The notes under the pieces were generated by a model. That model searched no databases. It saw only the letters and a program-made list of their open reading frames with translations, and was not told the origin of the DNA. Source: Streptomyces sp. NBC_00582 (lineage in GTDB: Bacteria; Actinomycetota; Actinomycetes; Streptomycetales; Streptomycetaceae). From it: DNA of 64,000 nucleotides. Shown here piece after piece: positions 33,204 to 40,935 of this stretch. The stretch covers positions 2,294,001-2,358,000 of the forward strand of contig NZ_CP107772.1 in NCBI RefSeq assembly GCF_036345155.1. The letters run 5' to 3'. The translations under genes and the position numbers were made by a program. Within the stretch, counting starts at the first letter, position 1; every line of letters starts with the position of its first letter.

Positions 33204-33230
33204 CGGGTGGCGCCGACGCGGCGTCACCCG
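33204..33230 (+). terminator. Terminator after the M1 peptidase gene
   Basis: CGGGTG-G-CGCCG, ACG loop, CGGCG-T-CACCCG form an 11-pair stem with one mismatch, 18 bp after the stop codon. Confidence 0.7.
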
Positions 33231-33389
33231 TTCGCCTGTGAGGGCGTCAGCCCGGTGAATCGGATGGGCCGAGCGGGTGAAGCGGCTGCGGCCCGAGGCG
33301 GTGTCCGCCGTGCGGGGCAATGCATGAAGCCGCGGCCCCATTCCGGTGGAGTCGGCGGACATGACGCCTGGAGGGCGAGTGATGAAGGA

Positions 33390-35084
33390 ATGACGAAGAA
33401 CCAGACGGCCGAACGAGCCGGCGAGACCGTCCACAAGGTCCCGGTCCTCATCGTCGGCGGGTCCCTGGTGGGCCTGTCGACGTCCCTGTTCCTGGGCCGG
33501 CTGGGGGTACGGCACACCCTGGTGGAGCGCCACGCCGGCACCTCCGTCCATCCCCGCGGCCGCGGCAACAACGTCCGCACGATGGAGCTGTTCCGGGTGG
33601 CCGGAGCCGAGCCGGGGATCCACGAGGCCGCGGCCACCCTGGCCGACAACCACGGCATCCTGCAGACGCCGACCCTGGTCGGCGACGCGGGCGAGTGGCT
33701 GTTCAAGGACATCGACCCGGGTGGCGGGCTGGCCCGGTTCAGCCCGACCGCCTGGTGCCTGTGCAGCCAGAACGACCTGGAGCCGGTCCTGCGCGAGCAG
33801 GCCGCGCGGCAGGGCGGCGATCTGCGCTTCCACACCGAGCTGATGTCGTTCGAGGCCGACGACGACGGCGTCACCGCGCTGGTCAAGAGCCGCGACACGG
33901 GCGAGCACCTGACGGTCCGCGCGGACTACCTGGTCGCCGCCGACGGCCCGCGCAGCCCCGTGCGGGAGGCGCTCGGCATCGGGCAGAGCGGCCCCGGCGA
34001 CCTGTTCCACAACATCAGCATGACGTTCCGTTCCCGGCGGCTCGCCGAGGTGGTGGGCGAGCGCCGCTTCATCGTCTGCTACCTGACCGAGCCGGACGCC
34101 GACGGTGCTCTGCTGCCCGTGGACAACCGCGAGAACTGGGTCTTCCACGCCCCCTGGCACCCCGAACACGGCGAGACGATGGAGGAGTTCACCGACGAAC
34201 GCTGCATCGAGCACATCCGCCGCGCGGTCGGGGTCCCCGACCTGGACGTGGAGATCACCGGCAAGGCGCCCTGGCACGCCGCCCAGCGGGTGACCCGCGC
34301 CTACCGGTCGGGGCGCGTCCTCCTCGCCGGCGACTCGGCGCACGAGATGTCCCCCACCGGCGCGTTCGGCTCCAACACCGGCATCCAGGACGCCCACAAC
34401 CTCGCCTGGAAACTGGCCGCGGTGCTCGACGGCTGGGCGGGCGAGGAACTCCTCGACACCTACGACGCCGAACGCCGTCCCGTGGCGGAGGCCACCAGCG
34501 CCCGCGCGGCCGCCCGGTCGGCCGAGCACAGCCACCCCGGCTTCGCGCCGCCGCCCTCCGCCGGCGGAGGCGGCGGACCGCAGCGGGGCATCCTGAACGT
34601 CGCGCTCGGCTACCGCTATCCGCGGGGCGCCGTCGTCGGCGCCGACCCCGCGGGCCCCGTGGTCCCCGAGGGGCTCTCCCTGACCGGGGAACCCGGAAGC
34701 AGGGCCCCCCATCTGTGGGTACGGCGCGCGGGCGAGCGGATCTCCACGCTCGACCTGTACGAGCGCACCATGGTGCTGCTCAGCGACGCCGACGACGCAC
34801 ACCCGGACGGTGAGCCGGGCGCCTGGCACGAGGCCGCCGCCCGCCTCTCCGACCGGGAGTCGATCCCGCTCACCCCCTACCGGGTGGGCACCGCGCCGGA
34901 CGCCGACCTGACACCCCTCGACGGGCCGCCCGGCACGGACTGGCGGGCCGCCCACGGCATCGGGGTCGGCGGTGCCGTCCTCGTACGGCCGGACGGGTTC
35001 GTCGCCTGGCGCTCCCCCGGTCCGGTCGCGGACCCCCAGTCGACGCTGCGTCAGGTGCTGGGCACCGTGCTGTCCTTGCCCTGA
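33390..35084 (+). CDS. FAD-dependent aromatic polyketide hydroxylase (spore pigment cluster, whiE ORFVIII-type)
   Basis: A 564-residue class A flavoprotein monooxygenase (PHBH fold), expected to hydroxylate the aromatic polyketide of the neighbouring cluster. It shows the FAD loop VLIVGGSLVGLSTSLFLG, the DG motif in VAADGPRSPVREALG and the GD motif in VLLAGDSAHEMSPTGAFG, with a thioredoxin-like C-terminal region. It lies upstream of the pigment operon on the same strand, whereas in S. coelicolor the whiE hydroxylase gene is divergent. Two surface-protein genes separate it from the rest of the cluster. ATG 33390 is preceded by GAAGGA at very short spacing, so the start is moderately certain. 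A strong terminator follows. Confidence 0.87.
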   Translation: MTKNQTAERAGETVHKVPVLIVGGSLVGLSTSLFLGRLGVRHTLVERHAGTSVHPRGRGNNVRTMELFRVAGAEPGIHEAAATLADNHGILQTPTLVGDAGEWLFKDIDPGGGLARFSPTAWCLCSQNDLEPVLREQAARQGGDLRFHTELMSFEADDDGVTALVKSRDTGEHLTVRADYLVAADGPRSPVREALGIGQSGPGDLFHNISMTFRSRRLAEVVGERRFIVCYLTEPDADGALLPVDNRENWVFHAPWHPEHGETMEEFTDERCIEHIRRAVGVPDLDVEITGKAPWHAAQRVTRAYRSGRVLLAGDSAHEMSPTGAFGSNTGIQDAHNLAWKLAAVLDGWAGEELLDTYDAERRPVAEATSARAAARSAEHSHPGFAPPPSAGGGGGPQRGILNVALGYRYPRGAVVGADPAGPVVPEGLSLTGEPGSRAPHLWVRRAGERISTLDLYERTMVLLSDADDAHPDGEPGAWHEAAARLSDRESIPLTPYRVGTAPDADLTPLDGPPGTDWRAAHGIGVGGAVLVRPDGFVAWRSPGPVADPQSTLRQVLGTVLSLP

Positions 35085-35103
35085 CCCCCCGCCCCCTCGA
35101 CCT

Positions 35104-35133
35104 CGGCCGGCAGCGCCCCTGCGCTGCCGGCCG
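35104..35133 (+). terminator. Strong terminator after the hydroxylase gene
   Basis: CGGCCGGCAGCGC 35104-35116 and its exact complement 35121-35133 form a perfect 13-bp stem with a 4-nt CCCT loop, 20 bp after the stop. Confidence 0.85.
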
Positions 35134-35229
35134 ACTCGTTCGGCGGGACGCGTTCACCCGCGTGACCGCCCCGAGTGGTGGGCGGCCGGGACTTGGCTGA
35201 CAGTGGATCACGTCGGGCCGGGTCATCTC

Positions 35230-35248
35230 AGCTGACGAGGCGTCAGCT
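35230..35248. promoter_or_regulatory. 19-bp perfect dyad upstream of the surface protein gene
   Basis: AGCTGACG-AGG-CGTCAGCT has perfect 8-bp arms. It ends 28 bp before the start codon at 35277, so it is placed to act as an operator over the transcription start or as a leader hairpin. Confidence 0.55.
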
Positions 35249-35276
35249 ACCCGGCTGTGACGGAAGGAACCCGCAC

Positions 35277-35864
35277 ATGCGTTCTGCTCGCATCATCCTG
35301 GCCACCGCGGCGGCCTCGGCCGCCCTCGCCCTCGCCGCGCCCGGCGCCTACGCGGCCGACGGCGACTGGGAGAAGGGCGACTCGTCCTACAGCAAGAAGG
35401 ACGACTCGTACGAGAAGAAGGACGACTCCTACAGCAAGGAGGACTCCGGCTACGGCAAGGAGCACGACAAGGACCACGGCAAGGACTACGGCAAGCCCCA
35501 CGGCGGCGTCCACACCGGCGGCGGCGCGCTGACCCTCGTGACCGACGGTTACGACAAGGGCGACAAGGGCGGCAAGGAGTGGAGCAAGGAGGACGGCGGC
35601 AAGGACTCCTGGAGCAAGGAGGACGGCGGCAAGGACTCCTGGAGCAAGGAGGACTCCGGCTACGGCAAGGACGACTCCTCCTGGAGCAAGGAGGACGGTG
35701 AGGACTCCTGGAGCGGCAAGGACAAGCCCCACGGCGGTGTGCACACCGGCGGTGGCGCCCTGGCCGCTCCGGGCGTGACCGCGGGCGGTCTGGCCGTCCT
35801 CGCGGTCGCCGGGGCCGGTCTGTACGGCGTGCGCCGCAAGAAGTCGGCGCACGGCCTGGCCTGA
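35277..35864 (+). CDS. Secreted Lys/Asp/Ser-rich repeat protein, likely sortase substrate
   Basis: A 195-residue exported protein. Residues 1-26 are a signal peptide. The body is very polar and repetitive, built of DDSYSK/EDSGYGK units and DGGKDSWSKE units; the latter come from a perfect 30-bp DNA duplication. The motif KPHGGVHTGGGAL occurs twice, at 73-85 and 150-162. The second copy is followed by a hydrophobic span (about 166-184) and the charged tail RRKK, the arrangement of a cell-wall sorting signal, although no LPxTG or LAxTG is present. A class F sortase gene lies 118 bp downstream. I infer that HTGGG is the cleavage motif. ATG 35277 follows GGAAGGA. Confidence 0.8.
   Translation: MRSARIILATAAASAALALAAPGAYAADGDWEKGDSSYSKKDDSYEKKDDSYSKEDSGYGKEHDKDHGKDYGKPHGGVHTGGGALTLVTDGYDKGDKGGKEWSKEDGGKDSWSKEDGGKDSWSKEDSGYGKDDSSWSKEDGEDSWSGKDKPHGGVHTGGGALAAPGVTAGGLAVLAVAGAGLYGVRRKKSAHGLA
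35581..35654 (+). repeat. 30-bp tandem repeat in the surface protein gene
   Basis: The 30-bp unit at 35581-35610 (beginning GGAGCAAGGAGGACGGCGGC) is repeated exactly at 35611-35640 and its first 14 bases again at 35641-35654. The length is a multiple of three, so copy-number change would lengthen or shorten the protein in frame by ten residues. Confidence 0.95.
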
Positions 35865-35982
35865 CCATGCCGGACGCGATAGAGCCGCGGCCGCCACCGG
35901 TGCATCGTGTGGCGGCCGCCCGGCCGGTTCTTCGCCCCGCCCCGTCCGCCCGCAGATCCGCCCCGTCCGAGGTGTTGACCCG

Positions 35983-36699
35983 ATGGCTGTCCCCCCTCCT
36001 TCCCCCGCCGACGACCTGTCGGACGGCCAGGAGTCCCGCTCGACCCTGACCGTGCTCGCCGCCGTGGCGCTGCTGATCCTGGCGGTGAGCCTGATCGGCG
36101 GCAACGACGCGTCCTCGTCCGGCTCCTCCTCGATCCCGACGCGGGCCCGGCAGGCGCCCCAGGTCCCCGGGACCTCGCTCTCCTCGGCGCCGCCGCTGCG
36201 CTCCTCCGCCCCGGCCGCGGGCGCCGCACAGCCGGTGGGCCGGCATCTGCCCCGCTCCCGGCCGGTCCGGCTGCGCATCCCCCGGATCTCGGTGGACGCC
36301 CCCTTCACGTACCTCACCCTGAACGCGAACGGGCAGCTCGAGGCCCCGCCCCCGAACGACACCAACCTCGTCGGCTGGCACGCCGCCGGCCCCTCCCCGG
36401 GCGAGGCGGGCACCGCGATCATCGCCGGTCACGTCGACACCAAGACCTCCGCCGCCGTCTTCGCCGGGCTGCAGTACCTGCGCAAGGGCGATGTCTTCGA
36501 CGTCCTGCGGGCGGACGGCAGCATCGCGCACTTCGAGATCGACGACACCGAGACGTTCGCCAAGGACGAGTTCCCGAGCGAGCGGGTCTACGCCGACACG
36601 CCCCGGGCCGAGGCCCGCCTCATCACCTGCGCGGGCGTCTACGACCGCTCGGCCAAGGACTACAAGGACAACCTGGTCGTCTTCGCCCACCTGCGATGA
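35983..36699 (+). CDS. Class F sortase
   Basis: A 238-residue membrane-anchored transpeptidase that should cut a sorting motif and join the protein to a cell-surface nucleophile. One membrane span (about 21-39) is followed by a Ser/Pro-rich linker and the sortase domain from about residue 95. The catalytic His150 lies in IIAGHVD and Cys216 in RLITCAG; VGWHAAGPSPGEAG and the final DNLVVFAHLR match class F. The likely substrate is the repeat protein just upstream. ATG 35983 has GAGGTG upstream. Both genes sit inside the spore-pigment cluster, which is unusual. Confidence 0.88.
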   Translation: MAVPPPSPADDLSDGQESRSTLTVLAAVALLILAVSLIGGNDASSSGSSSIPTRARQAPQVPGTSLSSAPPLRSSAPAAGAAQPVGRHLPRSRPVRLRIPRISVDAPFTYLTLNANGQLEAPPPNDTNLVGWHAAGPSPGEAGTAIIAGHVDTKTSAAVFAGLQYLRKGDVFDVLRADGSIAHFEIDDTETFAKDEFPSERVYADTPRAEARLITCAGVYDRSAKDYKDNLVVFAHLR

Positions 36700-36703
36700 A
36701 CCG

Positions 36704-36719
36704 TCACCCCCAGGGGTGA
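36704..36719 (+). terminator. Short hairpin after the sortase gene
   Basis: TCACCCC-CA-GGGGTGA is a perfect 7-bp stem starting 5 bp after the stop. It may be a weak terminator between the sortase and pigment operon. Confidence 0.45.
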
Positions 36720-36781
36720 TCACCCGCGCAGTCCATCCGAATCGCGCGCCGGTGGGGAGCGGCCCAGGATCGAGTCACGGC

Positions 36782-36819
36782 CACCTCGCAGCACCGCGCC
36801 TTCACCTCGCAGCACCGCG
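36782..36819 (+). promoter_or_regulatory. Perfect 17-bp direct repeat upstream of the pigment operon
   Basis: CACCTCGCAGCACCGCG occurs at 36782-36798 and again at 36803-36819, identical at all 17 positions with a 21-bp period, i.e. two turns of the helix. It ends 43 bp before the first pigment gene. The geometry suits two protein molecules bound on the same face. Confidence 0.6.
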
Positions 36820-36862
36820 AGGGAAGTTCACCGCTCCCCTCCCGCGAAGGAGATGTCCCCGC

Positions 36863-37960
36863 ATGACCACCACGCCCGCTCCCGCCTCCGCGCCGCTGAC
36901 CCGCCGCGTGTCGCAGCGTGTCTCCCAGTCCGTGTTCGACGGTTCCCGGCTCCGGGTCGTCCTGCTGGTCGATGTCCACGACGGCGCCCAGCAGCAGTTC
37001 CTGGAGGCGTACGAGCAGCTCTGCAACCAGGTCGCCTCCGTCCCCGGCCATGTCAGCGACCAGCTCTGCCAGTCGATCGAGAACCCCTCCCAGTGGCTCA
37101 TCACCAGTGAGTGGGAGAGCGCCCCGCCGTTCCTCACCTGGGTGAACAGCGAGGAGCACGTGGAGATGGTCAAGCCGCTGCACAGCTGTGTCCGCGACAC
37201 CCGCAGCCTGCGCTTCCACGTCGTACGGGAGACCGGCGGGCCGGCGGCGAACGCCGGCCGCGCCCTGCAGACGTCGCCCCGGATGGGGGACGGGGTGATC
37301 CGCCACGCGCTCACCTTCACCGTGCAGCCGGGCAGCGAGGAGAAGGTCGCCCGCATCCTGTCCGACTACGCCTCGCCCGACCCGAAGGTCGACGACACCA
37401 CGCGGCTGTGCCGTACGTCCCTGTACATGCACGGCAACCGGGTGGTGCGGGCCATCGAGGTGCGGGGCGACCTGATGGCCGCGCTGCGCCATGTCGCCCG
37501 GCAGCCCGAGGTGCGGGCCGTCGAGGAGGCCATCAACCCCTATCTGGAACAGGACCGGGACCTCGACGACCCGGACTCCGCACGGGTGTTCTTCACCCGG
37601 GCGGCGCTGCCCGCCGTCCACCACGTGGCGGCCGACCAGGAGGCCCCGAAGGCCGAGCGGCACGCCCTGTACTACCCGGCGAAGCCCGGCTGCGGCCTGG
37701 AGCTGGCCCGGCTGCTGGCCGAGCAGGACGAGGCGGCCGCGGACGACCCGAAGTGCCCGGTGCTGAGCAGCACGATCTTCCAGCGCGACGACGTCGTGGT
37801 GCGCCTGGTGGACGTACGGCACGGGGTGGGCGCCGACGACCCCGCGCTGTCGCCGAAGGCGGCCGAGCTGAAGCGGCTGCTGGACGGCCGCGCCCAGAAG
37901 GGTGCCGCCGGGCCGACCCGGATGGCCCTCGTCACCGACCGCCGCTCGCCCGGCGCCTGA
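36863..37960 (+). CDS. SchA/CurD-like protein (whiE ORFI-type), spore pigment cluster
   Basis: A 365-residue protein of the SchA/CurD family, found only in spore-pigment type II polyketide clusters and needed for pigment formation, with no defined reaction. An ABM-like ferredoxin-fold domain lies near residues 29-120 ([24 protein letters not shown]) and the SchA/CurD domain covers most of the rest ([22 protein letters not shown] and later [20 protein letters not shown]). ATG 36863 has AAGGAGAT 8 bp upstream. It is the first gene of an operon of seven, matching the order of whiE ORFI-VII. Confidence 0.88.
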
Positions 37961-38018
37961 TCCGTCCCGCACCCGCCCCTCGGCAGAGCAGAGCACAGCA
38001 CCCGATCGGAGCAACGTC

Positions 38019-38420
38019 GTGATCAATTCCCGTCCCAGAATCGTGGATCTCAGCGAGGTCGAGCCCAACACCCGGCGCGGCGGCGATCTGCGCGCCATGC
38101 TCACCCCGGCCACGGTCGGCTCCACCAGCGGTTTCATGGGCGTGGCCCTCATCCAGCCCGGCGACCGCATCGGCGAGCACTACCACCCGTACTCCGAGGA
38201 GTTCGTGTACGTCCTGTGCGGGCAGCTCGAGGTCGACCTGGACGGCGAGCCCACGCCGCTCCAGCCGGAGCAGGGTCTGCTGATCCCCATGCACATGAAG
38301 CACCGCTTCCGCAACGTCGGCAAGGTCGAGGCACGGATCGTCTTCCACCTCGGTCCGCTGGCCCCGAGCCCGCCGCTCGGCCACGTCGACACCGAGGAGA
38401 CCGCCGAGGTCGTCTCATGA
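38019..38420 (+). CDS. Cupin-domain protein (whiE ORFII-type)
   Basis: A 133-residue single cupin. The metal-site motif is seen as [18 protein letters not shown] with two His and one Glu, and the second motif as [11 protein letters not shown]. In pigment clusters such cupins are thought to help cyclisation or oxidation of the polyketide; the reaction is not settled. GTG 38019 has GGAG upstream. Its stop overlaps the KS-alpha start by ATGA (38417-38420). Confidence 0.88.
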
Positions 38421-39685
38421 GCGGGCGGCGGGTGGCGGTCACCGGCATAGGCGTGGTCGCACCCGGCGGCATCGGTGTGCCGGCGTTCTGGGACCTGCTC
38501 TCGCACGGGCGGACCGCGACGCGCGGCATCACCTTCTTCGATCCGGCCGGCCTGAGGTCACGGATCGCCGCCGAGTGCGACTTCGACCCGGCGGCCTCGG
38601 GGCTGGCCGCCGAGGAGATCGCCCGCAGCGACCGGTACATCCAGTTCGCGCTGGTCGCCGGGGAGGAGGCGGTGCGGGACGCGGGCCTCGACCTCGCCCG
38701 GGAGAACCCGTGGCGGGTCGGGGTGTCGCTGGGCACCGCGGTCGGCGGCACCACCCGGCTGGAGCACGACTACGTGCTGGTCAGCCATCGCGGGCAGCGC
38801 TGGGACGTCGACGGCGGGCGGGCGGAGCCGGAGCTGCACCGCGCGTTCACGCCGGCCACGCTCGCGGCCACCGTGGCCGAGCGGTTCGAGGCGCGCGGCC
38901 CGGTGCAGACGGTCTCCACGGGCTGCACCTCGGGGCTGGACGCCGTCGGGTACGCCTTCCACACGATCGAGGAGGGCCGGGCCGACGTCTGCATAGCCGG
39001 CGCGTCGGACTCGCCGATCTCCCCGATCACCATGGCGTGCTTCGACGCGATCAAGGCGACGTCGCCGAACAACGACGATCCCGCCCACGCCTCCCGCCCC
39101 TTCGACGCCGACCGCAACGGCTTCGTGATGGGCGAGGGCGGCGCCGTCCTCGTCCTGGAGGACCTGGAGCACGCCAAGGCCCGTGGGGCGCGCGTCTACT
39201 GCGAGCTGGGCGGCTACGCCACCTTCGGCAACGCGTACCACATGACGGGGCTGACCAAGGACGGTCTGGAGATGGCCCGGGCGATCGACTTCGCCCTCGA
39301 CCACGCCCGGCTGGACCCCACGGCCATCGACTACGTCAACGCGCACGGGTCGGGCACCCTGCAGAACGACCGTCATGAGACGGCGGCCGTGAAGCGGGCC
39401 CTGGGGCAGCACGCGTACGCCACCCCGATGAGCTCCATCAAGTCCATGGTGGGTCACTCGCTCGGCGCGATCGGCGCGATCGAGGTCGTCGCCTGTGTCC
39501 TCGCCATGGCCCACCAGGTGGTCCCGCCCACCGCGAACTACGAGACCCCCGACCCCGAGTGCGACCTGGACTACGTGCCGCGGGTCGCGCGGGAACGGAC
39601 GCTGAACAGCGTGCTCTCCGTGGGCAGCGGGTTCGGCGGGTTCCAGTCCGCGGTGGTCCTGACCCGGCCGAGGGAGAGGACATGA
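38417..39685 (+). CDS. Type II polyketide ketosynthase alpha (spore pigment)
   Basis: The condensing subunit of the minimal polyketide synthase, 422 residues. Active-site Cys170 lies in [10 protein letters not shown], with His in NAHGSGT and His in VGHSLGA, so all catalytic residues are present. It works as a heterodimer with the next gene product and extends malonyl units on the ACP. The gene is coupled at both ends: ATGA overlap with the cupin gene and with the KS-beta gene. Confidence 0.95.
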
Positions 39686-40935
39686 TGAGCGCACCGCGTT
39701 CACGGCGCGCCGCCGTCACCGGAATCGGTGTCGTCGCGCCGAACGGAACCAACACCCAGGCCTTCTGGAAGGCCACGCAGGAAGGCATCAGCGTCCTGGA
39801 CCGGGTGACCCGCGAGGGCTGCGGGCATCTGCCGCTGCGGGTGGCCGGCGAGGTCCGCGACTTCGACGCGTCGGCCTCCGTGGAGGAACGCTTCCTCGTC
39901 CAGACGGACCGGTTCACGCACTTCGCGATGGCCGCCGCCGATCTCGCGCTGGAGGACGCCCGGCTCGGCCAGGCCGACACCGCCGAGGCCCCCTACTCGG
40001 TGGGCGTGGTCACCGCCGCCGGCAGCGGCGGCGGCGAGTTCGGTCAGCGGGAGCTGCAGCAGCTGTGGGGCAAGGGCAGCCGGTTCGTCGGGCCGTACCA
40101 GTCGATCGCCTGGTTCTACGCGGCGTCCACCGGCCAGATCTCGATCCGCCGCGGCTTCAAGGGCCCCTGCTCGGTGCTCGCCGCGGACGAGGCGGGCGGT
40201 CTGGACGCCCTCGCGCACGCGGCGCGGGCGGTACGGCGCGGCACCGATGTGCTGGTGACCGGCTCGACCGAGGCGCCGCTCGCCCCGTACTCGATGGTCT
40301 GCCAGCTCGGTTACGAGGCGCTGAGCACCGTGGCGGAGCCGGAGCGCGCCTACCGCCCGTTCACCGAGGCGGCGTGCGGGTTCGTGCCCGCCGAGGGCGG
40401 CGCCATGTTCGTCGTGGAGTCGGAGTCCTCGGCCCGGGAGCGGGGGGCCCGGGTGCGGGCCATCCTCGTCGGGCACGCGGCGACGTTCACCGGGGCCTCC
40501 CGGTGGGCGCAGTCGCGGGAGGGGCTCGCGCAGGCGATCCGGGGCGCGCTGGACGAGGCGGGGTGTGCCCCGGAGGAGATCGACGTGGTCTTCGCCGACG
40601 CCCTGGGGGTGCCGGAGGCGGACCGGGCCGAGGCGCTCGCGATCGCCGACGCGCTCGGCGCGCACGGCCGCAAGGTGCCGGTGACGGCGCCGAAGACCGG
40701 GATCGGCCGGGCCTACGGCGGGGCGCCGGTGCTGGACACGGCGGCCGCGGTGCTGGCGATGGAGCACGGTCTGGTCCCGCCCACCCCCCATGTCTTCGAC
40801 ATCTGCCATGACCTCGACCTGGTGACCGAGCGCGCCCGTCCCGCGGACCTGCGGACGGCGCTGGTCCTCAGCCGGGGCCTCATGGGGTCGAACTCGGCGC
40901 TGGTGCTGCGGCACGGCGCCGCCCACGCCTCGTAG
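39682..40935 (+). CDS. Type II polyketide chain length factor (KS-beta)
   Basis: The 417-residue partner of KS-alpha that sets chain length. It aligns with KS-alpha throughout, but the active-site Cys position is Glu170 in [10 protein letters not shown]; most chain-length factors have Gln there. Lack of the Cys confirms it cannot condense on its own. The start ATG overlaps the KS-alpha stop; a second ATG is the next codon. Forty-eight bases separate it from the ACP gene. Confidence 0.93.

Follow-up and report, generated by a model that had tools for sequence, protein, structure and literature searches.

A Streptomyces class F sortase gene and its neighbouring candidate substrate, in which the presumed sorting site is repeated

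We analysed a 64,000-nucleotide stretch of Streptomyces sp. NBC_00582 (contig NZ_CP107772.1, positions 2,294,001 to 2,358,000; hereafter the window), in which a gene for a low-complexity protein is followed by a sortase gene on the same strand (Table 1). The protein, a putative sortase substrate, carries the motif KPHGGVHTGGGAL both in its middle and ahead of a C-terminal hydrophobic span, and a preliminary description of the sequence that had reported this duplication proved correct at both places. The two copies are identical as protein and differ in 4 of 13 codons (counted by eye). The 122 residues preceding the terminal motif include 24 Asp, 23 Gly, 21 Lys and 18 Ser, and in Pfam the substrate matched no family significantly (best E 0.88). 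Many relatives of the substrate likewise start with MRSAR or MRSVR. As judged by eye, the protein has the parts by which sortase substrates are recognized, namely a signal peptide, a C-terminal motif, a span and a positively charged tail, and it is probably attached covalently to the cell wall by a sortase.

The downstream gene encodes a class F sortase, as the preliminary description had stated; the product scores 201.8 bits against the NCBIfam model class_F_sortase (NF033748, cut-off 166). The catalytic residues H150 and C216 are invariant across 28 aligned sortases. N230 is also invariant in this alignment, while no invariant Arg follows C216; actinobacterial class F sortases are reported to have Asn in place of Arg (PMC6998099; here and below, cited papers are drawn on as far as their text was available), and N230 is the putative equivalent of that Asn. 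A search of PDB sequences with the window sortase gave no match, and an AlphaFold2 model was poor (mean predicted local distance difference test score of 52) and was not used. Five sortases of this class are encoded by S. coelicolor (PMC5148588); what class F sortases do physiologically has been described as unknown (PMC13251363).

Table 1. Features of the substrate-sortase locus (positions in the window)
Feature	Position	Strand	Remarks
Putative substrate gene	35277..35864	+	195 aa; mature part low-complexity, rich in D, G, K, S, E, Y and W
Sec-type signal peptide	35277..35354	+	residues 1-26, MRSAR...AYA, judged by eye
Internal copy of KPHGGVHTGGGAL	35493..35531	+	residues 73-85
Terminal copy of KPHGGVHTGGGAL, presumed sorting signal	35724..35762	+	residues 150-162; weak GVDTG_CTERM match at 151-187
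Hydrophobic span and RRKK tail	35772..35843	+	about residues 166-189 (span about 166-185, RRKK 186-189), by eye
Hairpin GCGGCCGCCAC...GTGGCGGCCGC	35887..35919	+	between substrate and sortase genes; possible attenuator or processing site
Class F sortase gene	35983..36699	+	238 aa; Cys216 in LITCAG, His150 in AGHVD
whiE ORFI-like protein	36863..37960	+	SchA/CurD and ABM domains

To avoid query bias, further loci were anchored on the sortase and not on the repeat. The sample comprised 137 loci, 28 from a scan of named genomes and 109 from a search that covered 199 genomes within the genus; this search gave matches in 112 genomes (119 rows), of which 109 were used (30 loci and 79 fetched) and the ten weakest omitted. 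At 127 of the 137 loci the gene upstream of the sortase ended in PxGG[VMI]x[T/A]GGG, a span and a basic tail, so the proposed pairing of sortase and substrate was borne out; this selection also means that all 127 carry the terminal copy. Eight of the ten loci at which no substrate was found are situated at a contig end or close to one (L067, L071, L128, L159, L166, L189, L193 and L208). Pairs lacking the motif, named in the preliminary description as a refuting case, were looked for, and this led to the two remaining loci, whose upstream sequence is complete: at L112 no substrate gene could be recognised, and at L124 the sortase adjoins a decayed one (SRGRTHTGGG, broken span). The pair is maintained amid differing neighbours. 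A whiE ORFI-like gene of one family adjoins it at 10 of the 28 named loci, and other shared neighbour families, named by eye, are HtpG-like chaperones, TctA-like permeases and Kdp-like proteins.

Three of the 127 proteins were left out of the copy counts that follow, namely L120 (a fragment, which cannot be judged), L203 (contig end) and L075 (frameshift); the last two do show an internal copy. The 124 rows that remain contain 120 different sortases and 120 different substrate ends. Locus counts are not counts of independent events, because the named and unnamed sets share some identical or nearly identical loci. With Ala accepted at the Thr position and a single Ser or Ala tolerated in GGG, two to six copies (one to five of them internal) were present in 110 proteins, and the other 14 had a single copy. 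An apparent single-copy clade (S. althioticus, S. werraensis, S. cellulosae and relatives) was rejected, since its members have an internal HAGGG copy that was missed by a regular expression demanding Thr or Ser. Homologue lists obtained with multi-copy queries are biased, and all 210 substrates in them carry at least two copies, one of them eight; the sortase-anchored set is the fair one. Three loci from near relatives (L113, L115 and L116; sortase identity of 93-96% to a single S. violaceoruber sortase) have 3, 4 and 5 copies, respectively; copy number therefore changes fast.

Tabulated invariance of GG, T and GGG among the copies was rejected as evidence because these columns were fixed by the regular expression. 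Free of that constraint, we scanned the protein bodies for sites with at least five of eight fixed positions (P, GG, V/M/I, T/A and GGG), which span both sides of the presumed scissile bond. The 124 proteins contained 191 internal sites matching at all eight positions, 8 at seven, none at six and 18 at five, and all eight single-change sites were GSG, from three related loci. A scan of 123 proteins, from which L057 had been left out as trimmed too far (the 124-protein scan takes it in), gave 190, 8, 0 and 18 sites with zero to three changes, compared with means in shuffled sequences of 0.05 (one change), 1.9 (two) and 39.7 (three). A chance origin of the copies was ruled out, since 190 internal sites were perfect where shuffled sequences gave on average 0.05 matches at seven of eight positions.

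Comparison of the first internal with the terminal copy showed that 344 of 936 same-residue codons differ, where 402 would be expected if codons were drawn independently (about 86% of saturation), while residue differences number only 54 of 990. This codon divergence rules out that the identical copies stem from a recent duplication or gene conversion. Because the codons have diverged to near saturation while the residues were kept, we conclude from these comparisons that the internal copies are maintained by purifying selection, and the all-or-none distribution of sites matches strict selection. The duplicated motif of the window protein is thus a conserved one.

Outside Streptomyces, 20 loci in six further genera of the same family were taken from the top of the matches listed. 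All 20 preserve the pair with a terminal signal (GGG in 14, GIG in 6), and an internal copy was absent in all 20. Since these pairs have the terminal signal only, a gain of internal copies in Streptomyces is indicated, and the simplest history would be a single-site pair, gain of internal copies in Streptomyces and then several losses. On a sortase tree including the other genera (a quick tree with many weak branches), the single- or multi-copy label needs 7 changes.

The preliminary description had also recognized sorting-signal geometry without LPxTG, and the motif, span and basic tail agree with this; NCBIfam already models such geometry as GVDTG_CTERM (NF058571), defined by C-terminal G-V-x-T-G, a span and an Arg/Lys tail. 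The window protein shares this architecture and, beside its class F sortase, the pattern G-[VMI]-x-T-G, span and basic tail. It differs from the readable top-scoring members described below in its internal copy, and it scores below the model cut-off (18.2 bits, E 0.0023, cut-off 29), and it was not among the GVDTG_CTERM matches in a scan of its own genome; at least five orthologous substrates (L131, L132, L135, L153 and L203) do pass the cut-off. Among 30 top-scoring loci of other GVxTG subfamilies, the signature of a class F sortase lay no more than 1.5 kb away in 28; inspection by eye of the 28 readable proteins showed no repetition of the motif. The motif would therefore have been a sorting signal before it was repeated, because it is single-copy both in these subfamilies and in the 20 pairs of other genera. 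Four further sortases of the window's own genome adjoin a single-site protein that matches GVDTG_CTERM at E ≤0.0035, and a match at 7498053 (E 2.7e-4) adjoins none of the 11 sortases listed. Beside another sortase of this genome (L079, 1705664-1705789) is a protein that ends in GGVRGGLGGS and a span, with no Thr at the expected place. The signal is widespread in actinomycetes, since at E ≤ 1e-4 the model finds matches in 90 of the 296 genomes scanned across the class, representing 38 of 114 genera.

The 118 bases between the substrate and sortase genes of the window hold a strong hairpin. A perfect inverted repeat of at least 9 bp lies within 95 nt past the substrate stop at 97 of 127 loci, where 6.1 would be expected from shuffles that preserve single-base make-up only. 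Such a hairpin may reduce expression of the sortase relative to the substrate.

In the region 33207-40935 of the window, the pair has an aromatic-ring hydroxylase on one side and, on the other, a whiE-like spore-pigment cluster with a SchA/CurD protein, a cupin and ketosynthases. A class F sortase within a type II polyketide cluster has been noted earlier in S. yeochonensis (PMC6998099). In S. coelicolor, genes for a membrane protein of unknown function (SCO7449), a sortase (SCO7450) and a whiE ORFI-like protein (SCO7451) lie together, adjoined by O-methyltransferase and secreted-protein genes (PMC3878966). Relatives of the window pair resemble this arrangement in gene order: substrate, sortase, whiE ORFI, methyltransferase and beta-helix protein follow one another at L053, L055 and L070, at L051 up to the methyltransferase, and again from substrate to beta-helix protein at L266-L268, three genomes with sortases 93-96% identical to one of S. 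violaceoruber. By this gene order, and not by the sequence of SCO7449, we take SCO7449 and SCO7450 to be a homologous pair. SCO7450 is called a subgroup E sortase in the S. coelicolor study, unlike the class F assignment made here, and the available text of that study mentions neither the motif nor its repetition (PMC3878966).

Expression of SCO7449 is strongly induced during sporulation and requires whiA and whiH. Fluorescence driven by the SCO7449 promoter reached 831 units in spores and 15.7 in vegetative hyphae, with 21.3 in spores for the empty vector (PMC3878966). Expression is also lowered, along with other differentiation genes, in a sigma-factor mutant (PMC5826349). Deletion of SCO7449-7451 (strain K317) produced brownish colonies and changed spore colour; for growth, sporulation, spore shape and stress tolerance, the available text reports that no effect was found (PMC3878966). 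Shared gene order with SCO7449-7451 would thus link the pair to sporulation. The preliminary description's suggestion of a surface layer was not supported, with gene linkage indicating spore wall or spore pigment.

Internal and terminal copies were compared for signs of shared use. At P1, only Thr or Ala occurs in the 326 copies that match at the other positions, internal and terminal alike; 7 proteins have Ala in all their copies and 5 have mixed internal copies. Two of three sole terminal signals in another genus (g115) have Ala, so Ala at P1 need not mark a dead site and seems, from its occurrence there, to be functional in a sorting signal; other sortases accept additional residues at the same position (PMC10763551). 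The substrate body at L194 has long Asp runs and three copies, all GGVDAGGG. Agreement of the first internal with the terminal copy at P1, P2 and P3 was exceeded in 0 of 5000 permutations each. Co-variation was nevertheless rejected as strong evidence, since it passes permutations but does not reach significance in a tree-aware test, and shared ancestry can explain it.

We propose that the two genes form a sporulation-linked wall-anchoring module, in which internal sites are kept because the partner sortase recognises and most likely cuts them, a proposal to which we give slightly less than an even chance. By analogy with the sortase family, the substrate would be exported and stay in the membrane through its C-terminal span. 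The class F sortase encoded next to it would cut the terminal PxGG-V-H-T/GGG (the slash marks the presumed cut) and join the protein to a wall precursor. In Streptomyces the recognition site would have been duplicated into the low-complexity body and retained by selection, and the partner sortase would also recognise the internal copies and most likely cut them. The product would be several wall-joined segments per chain, or segments linked together. Recognition of the internal copies by the partner is favoured because the same site is kept on both sides of the presumed cut; multi-site processing of the substrate is favoured with about evenly balanced confidence. A more far-reaching form, which we regard as distinctly unlikely, is a polyprotein cut at every HT/GGG and rejoined head to tail by ordinary peptide bonds. 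Each site would supply an acyl donor (...HT) and, after cutting, an N-terminal triglycine acceptor, and the spore wall would come to contain a wall-linked polymer or disordered segments in shuffled combination. Rejoining is chemically plausible because each cut leaves an N-terminal GGG; N-terminal triglycine is a classic sortase acceptor, and sortase A uses oligoglycine as its acceptor.

Several observations weigh against the use of internal copies by the partner sortase, or against class F sortases having such a role. Internal copies are missing from 14 of the 124 proteins. Ala-only internal copies are combined with a terminal Thr in 11 of 110 proteins and the reverse is found in 1, so internal sites are somewhat differently constrained. 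Internal copies also keep a Val downstream (102 of 140), at a place that Pro occupies in the terminal copy (114 of 119). The Ala/Thr lineages and this extra Val speak for some difference in use. The tree-aware test of agreement at P1 and P3 was not significant, with only 3 and 6 independent pairs. The only characterised class F enzyme, from C. acnes, is reported to use LPXTG (PMC13257024), Actinoplanes missouriensis lacking all four class F sortases had no phenotype according to the available text (PMC13251363), and the literature searched yielded no biochemistry for a class F sortase acting on a GVxTG site.

Some of these observations would be expected if internal copies serve for docking, binding the sortase or a partner and holding or clustering it near the substrate while only the membrane-held terminal copy is cut. 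Conventional sorting uses a membrane span, which internal copies lack; the recognition residues are alike at all copies, and the 11 proteins with internal Ala and terminal Thr fit as well. We consider docking rather unlikely, however, as the prime-side GGG is also kept internally (199 sites, 8 of them as GSG), beyond the needs of non-prime-side docking. To a similarly low probability we assign a role of the motif in the mature wall protein, as a sticker binding another component of the spore wall, pigment, a metal or itself; the resemblance to a sorting signal would then reflect descent only. The conserved AL..V residues after internal copies, the spacer-and-motif layout with a copy number that varies among close relatives (L113, L115 and L116) and the pigment phenotype of the SCO7449-7451 deletion agree with such a role, but it would not be expected to hold P1 to Thr or Ala and GGG so close to the terminal form, nor does it sit well with the absence of internal copies from the 14 single-copy pairs and from all 20 pairs of other genera. 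If a repetitive gene had recently undergone tandem duplication or gene conversion, copies left behind without function would account for the variable copy number and for some near-identical adjacent repeat units (L115). This neutral origin is very improbable, being contradicted by the nearly saturated synonymous divergence of the first internal copy from the terminal one and by the lack of decaying copies (none at six of eight positions).

In sortase C pili, the sortase links substrates to one another through a terminal signal and a pilin lysine, and repeated sorting motifs within one chain are not known to be involved. The long chaplins ChpA-C of Streptomyces are likewise developmental wall proteins anchored by an actinobacterial sortase, but with an LAXTG signal and a class E enzyme (PMC5148588). 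SspA of Actinoplanes missouriensis is also a predicted disordered, sortase-anchored spore-wall protein (PMC13293333); it differs in being anchored by a class E sortase (PMC13251363), and the available text mentions no internal motif copies (PMC13293333). No description of internally repeated sorting sites was found in the literature searched, which was judged partly by title. As far as this search extends, the internal repetition is the new part, while the terminal signal and the class F pairing extend a known kind. The pair offers class F sortases a concrete candidate substrate, a likely recognition site and a developmental setting in a model organism, for which the deletion strain K317 has already been described (PMC3878966). 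Conserved internal copies of a sorting site are an unusual design, and if these copies are indeed used, the view of sortases as end-of-chain enzymes would change.
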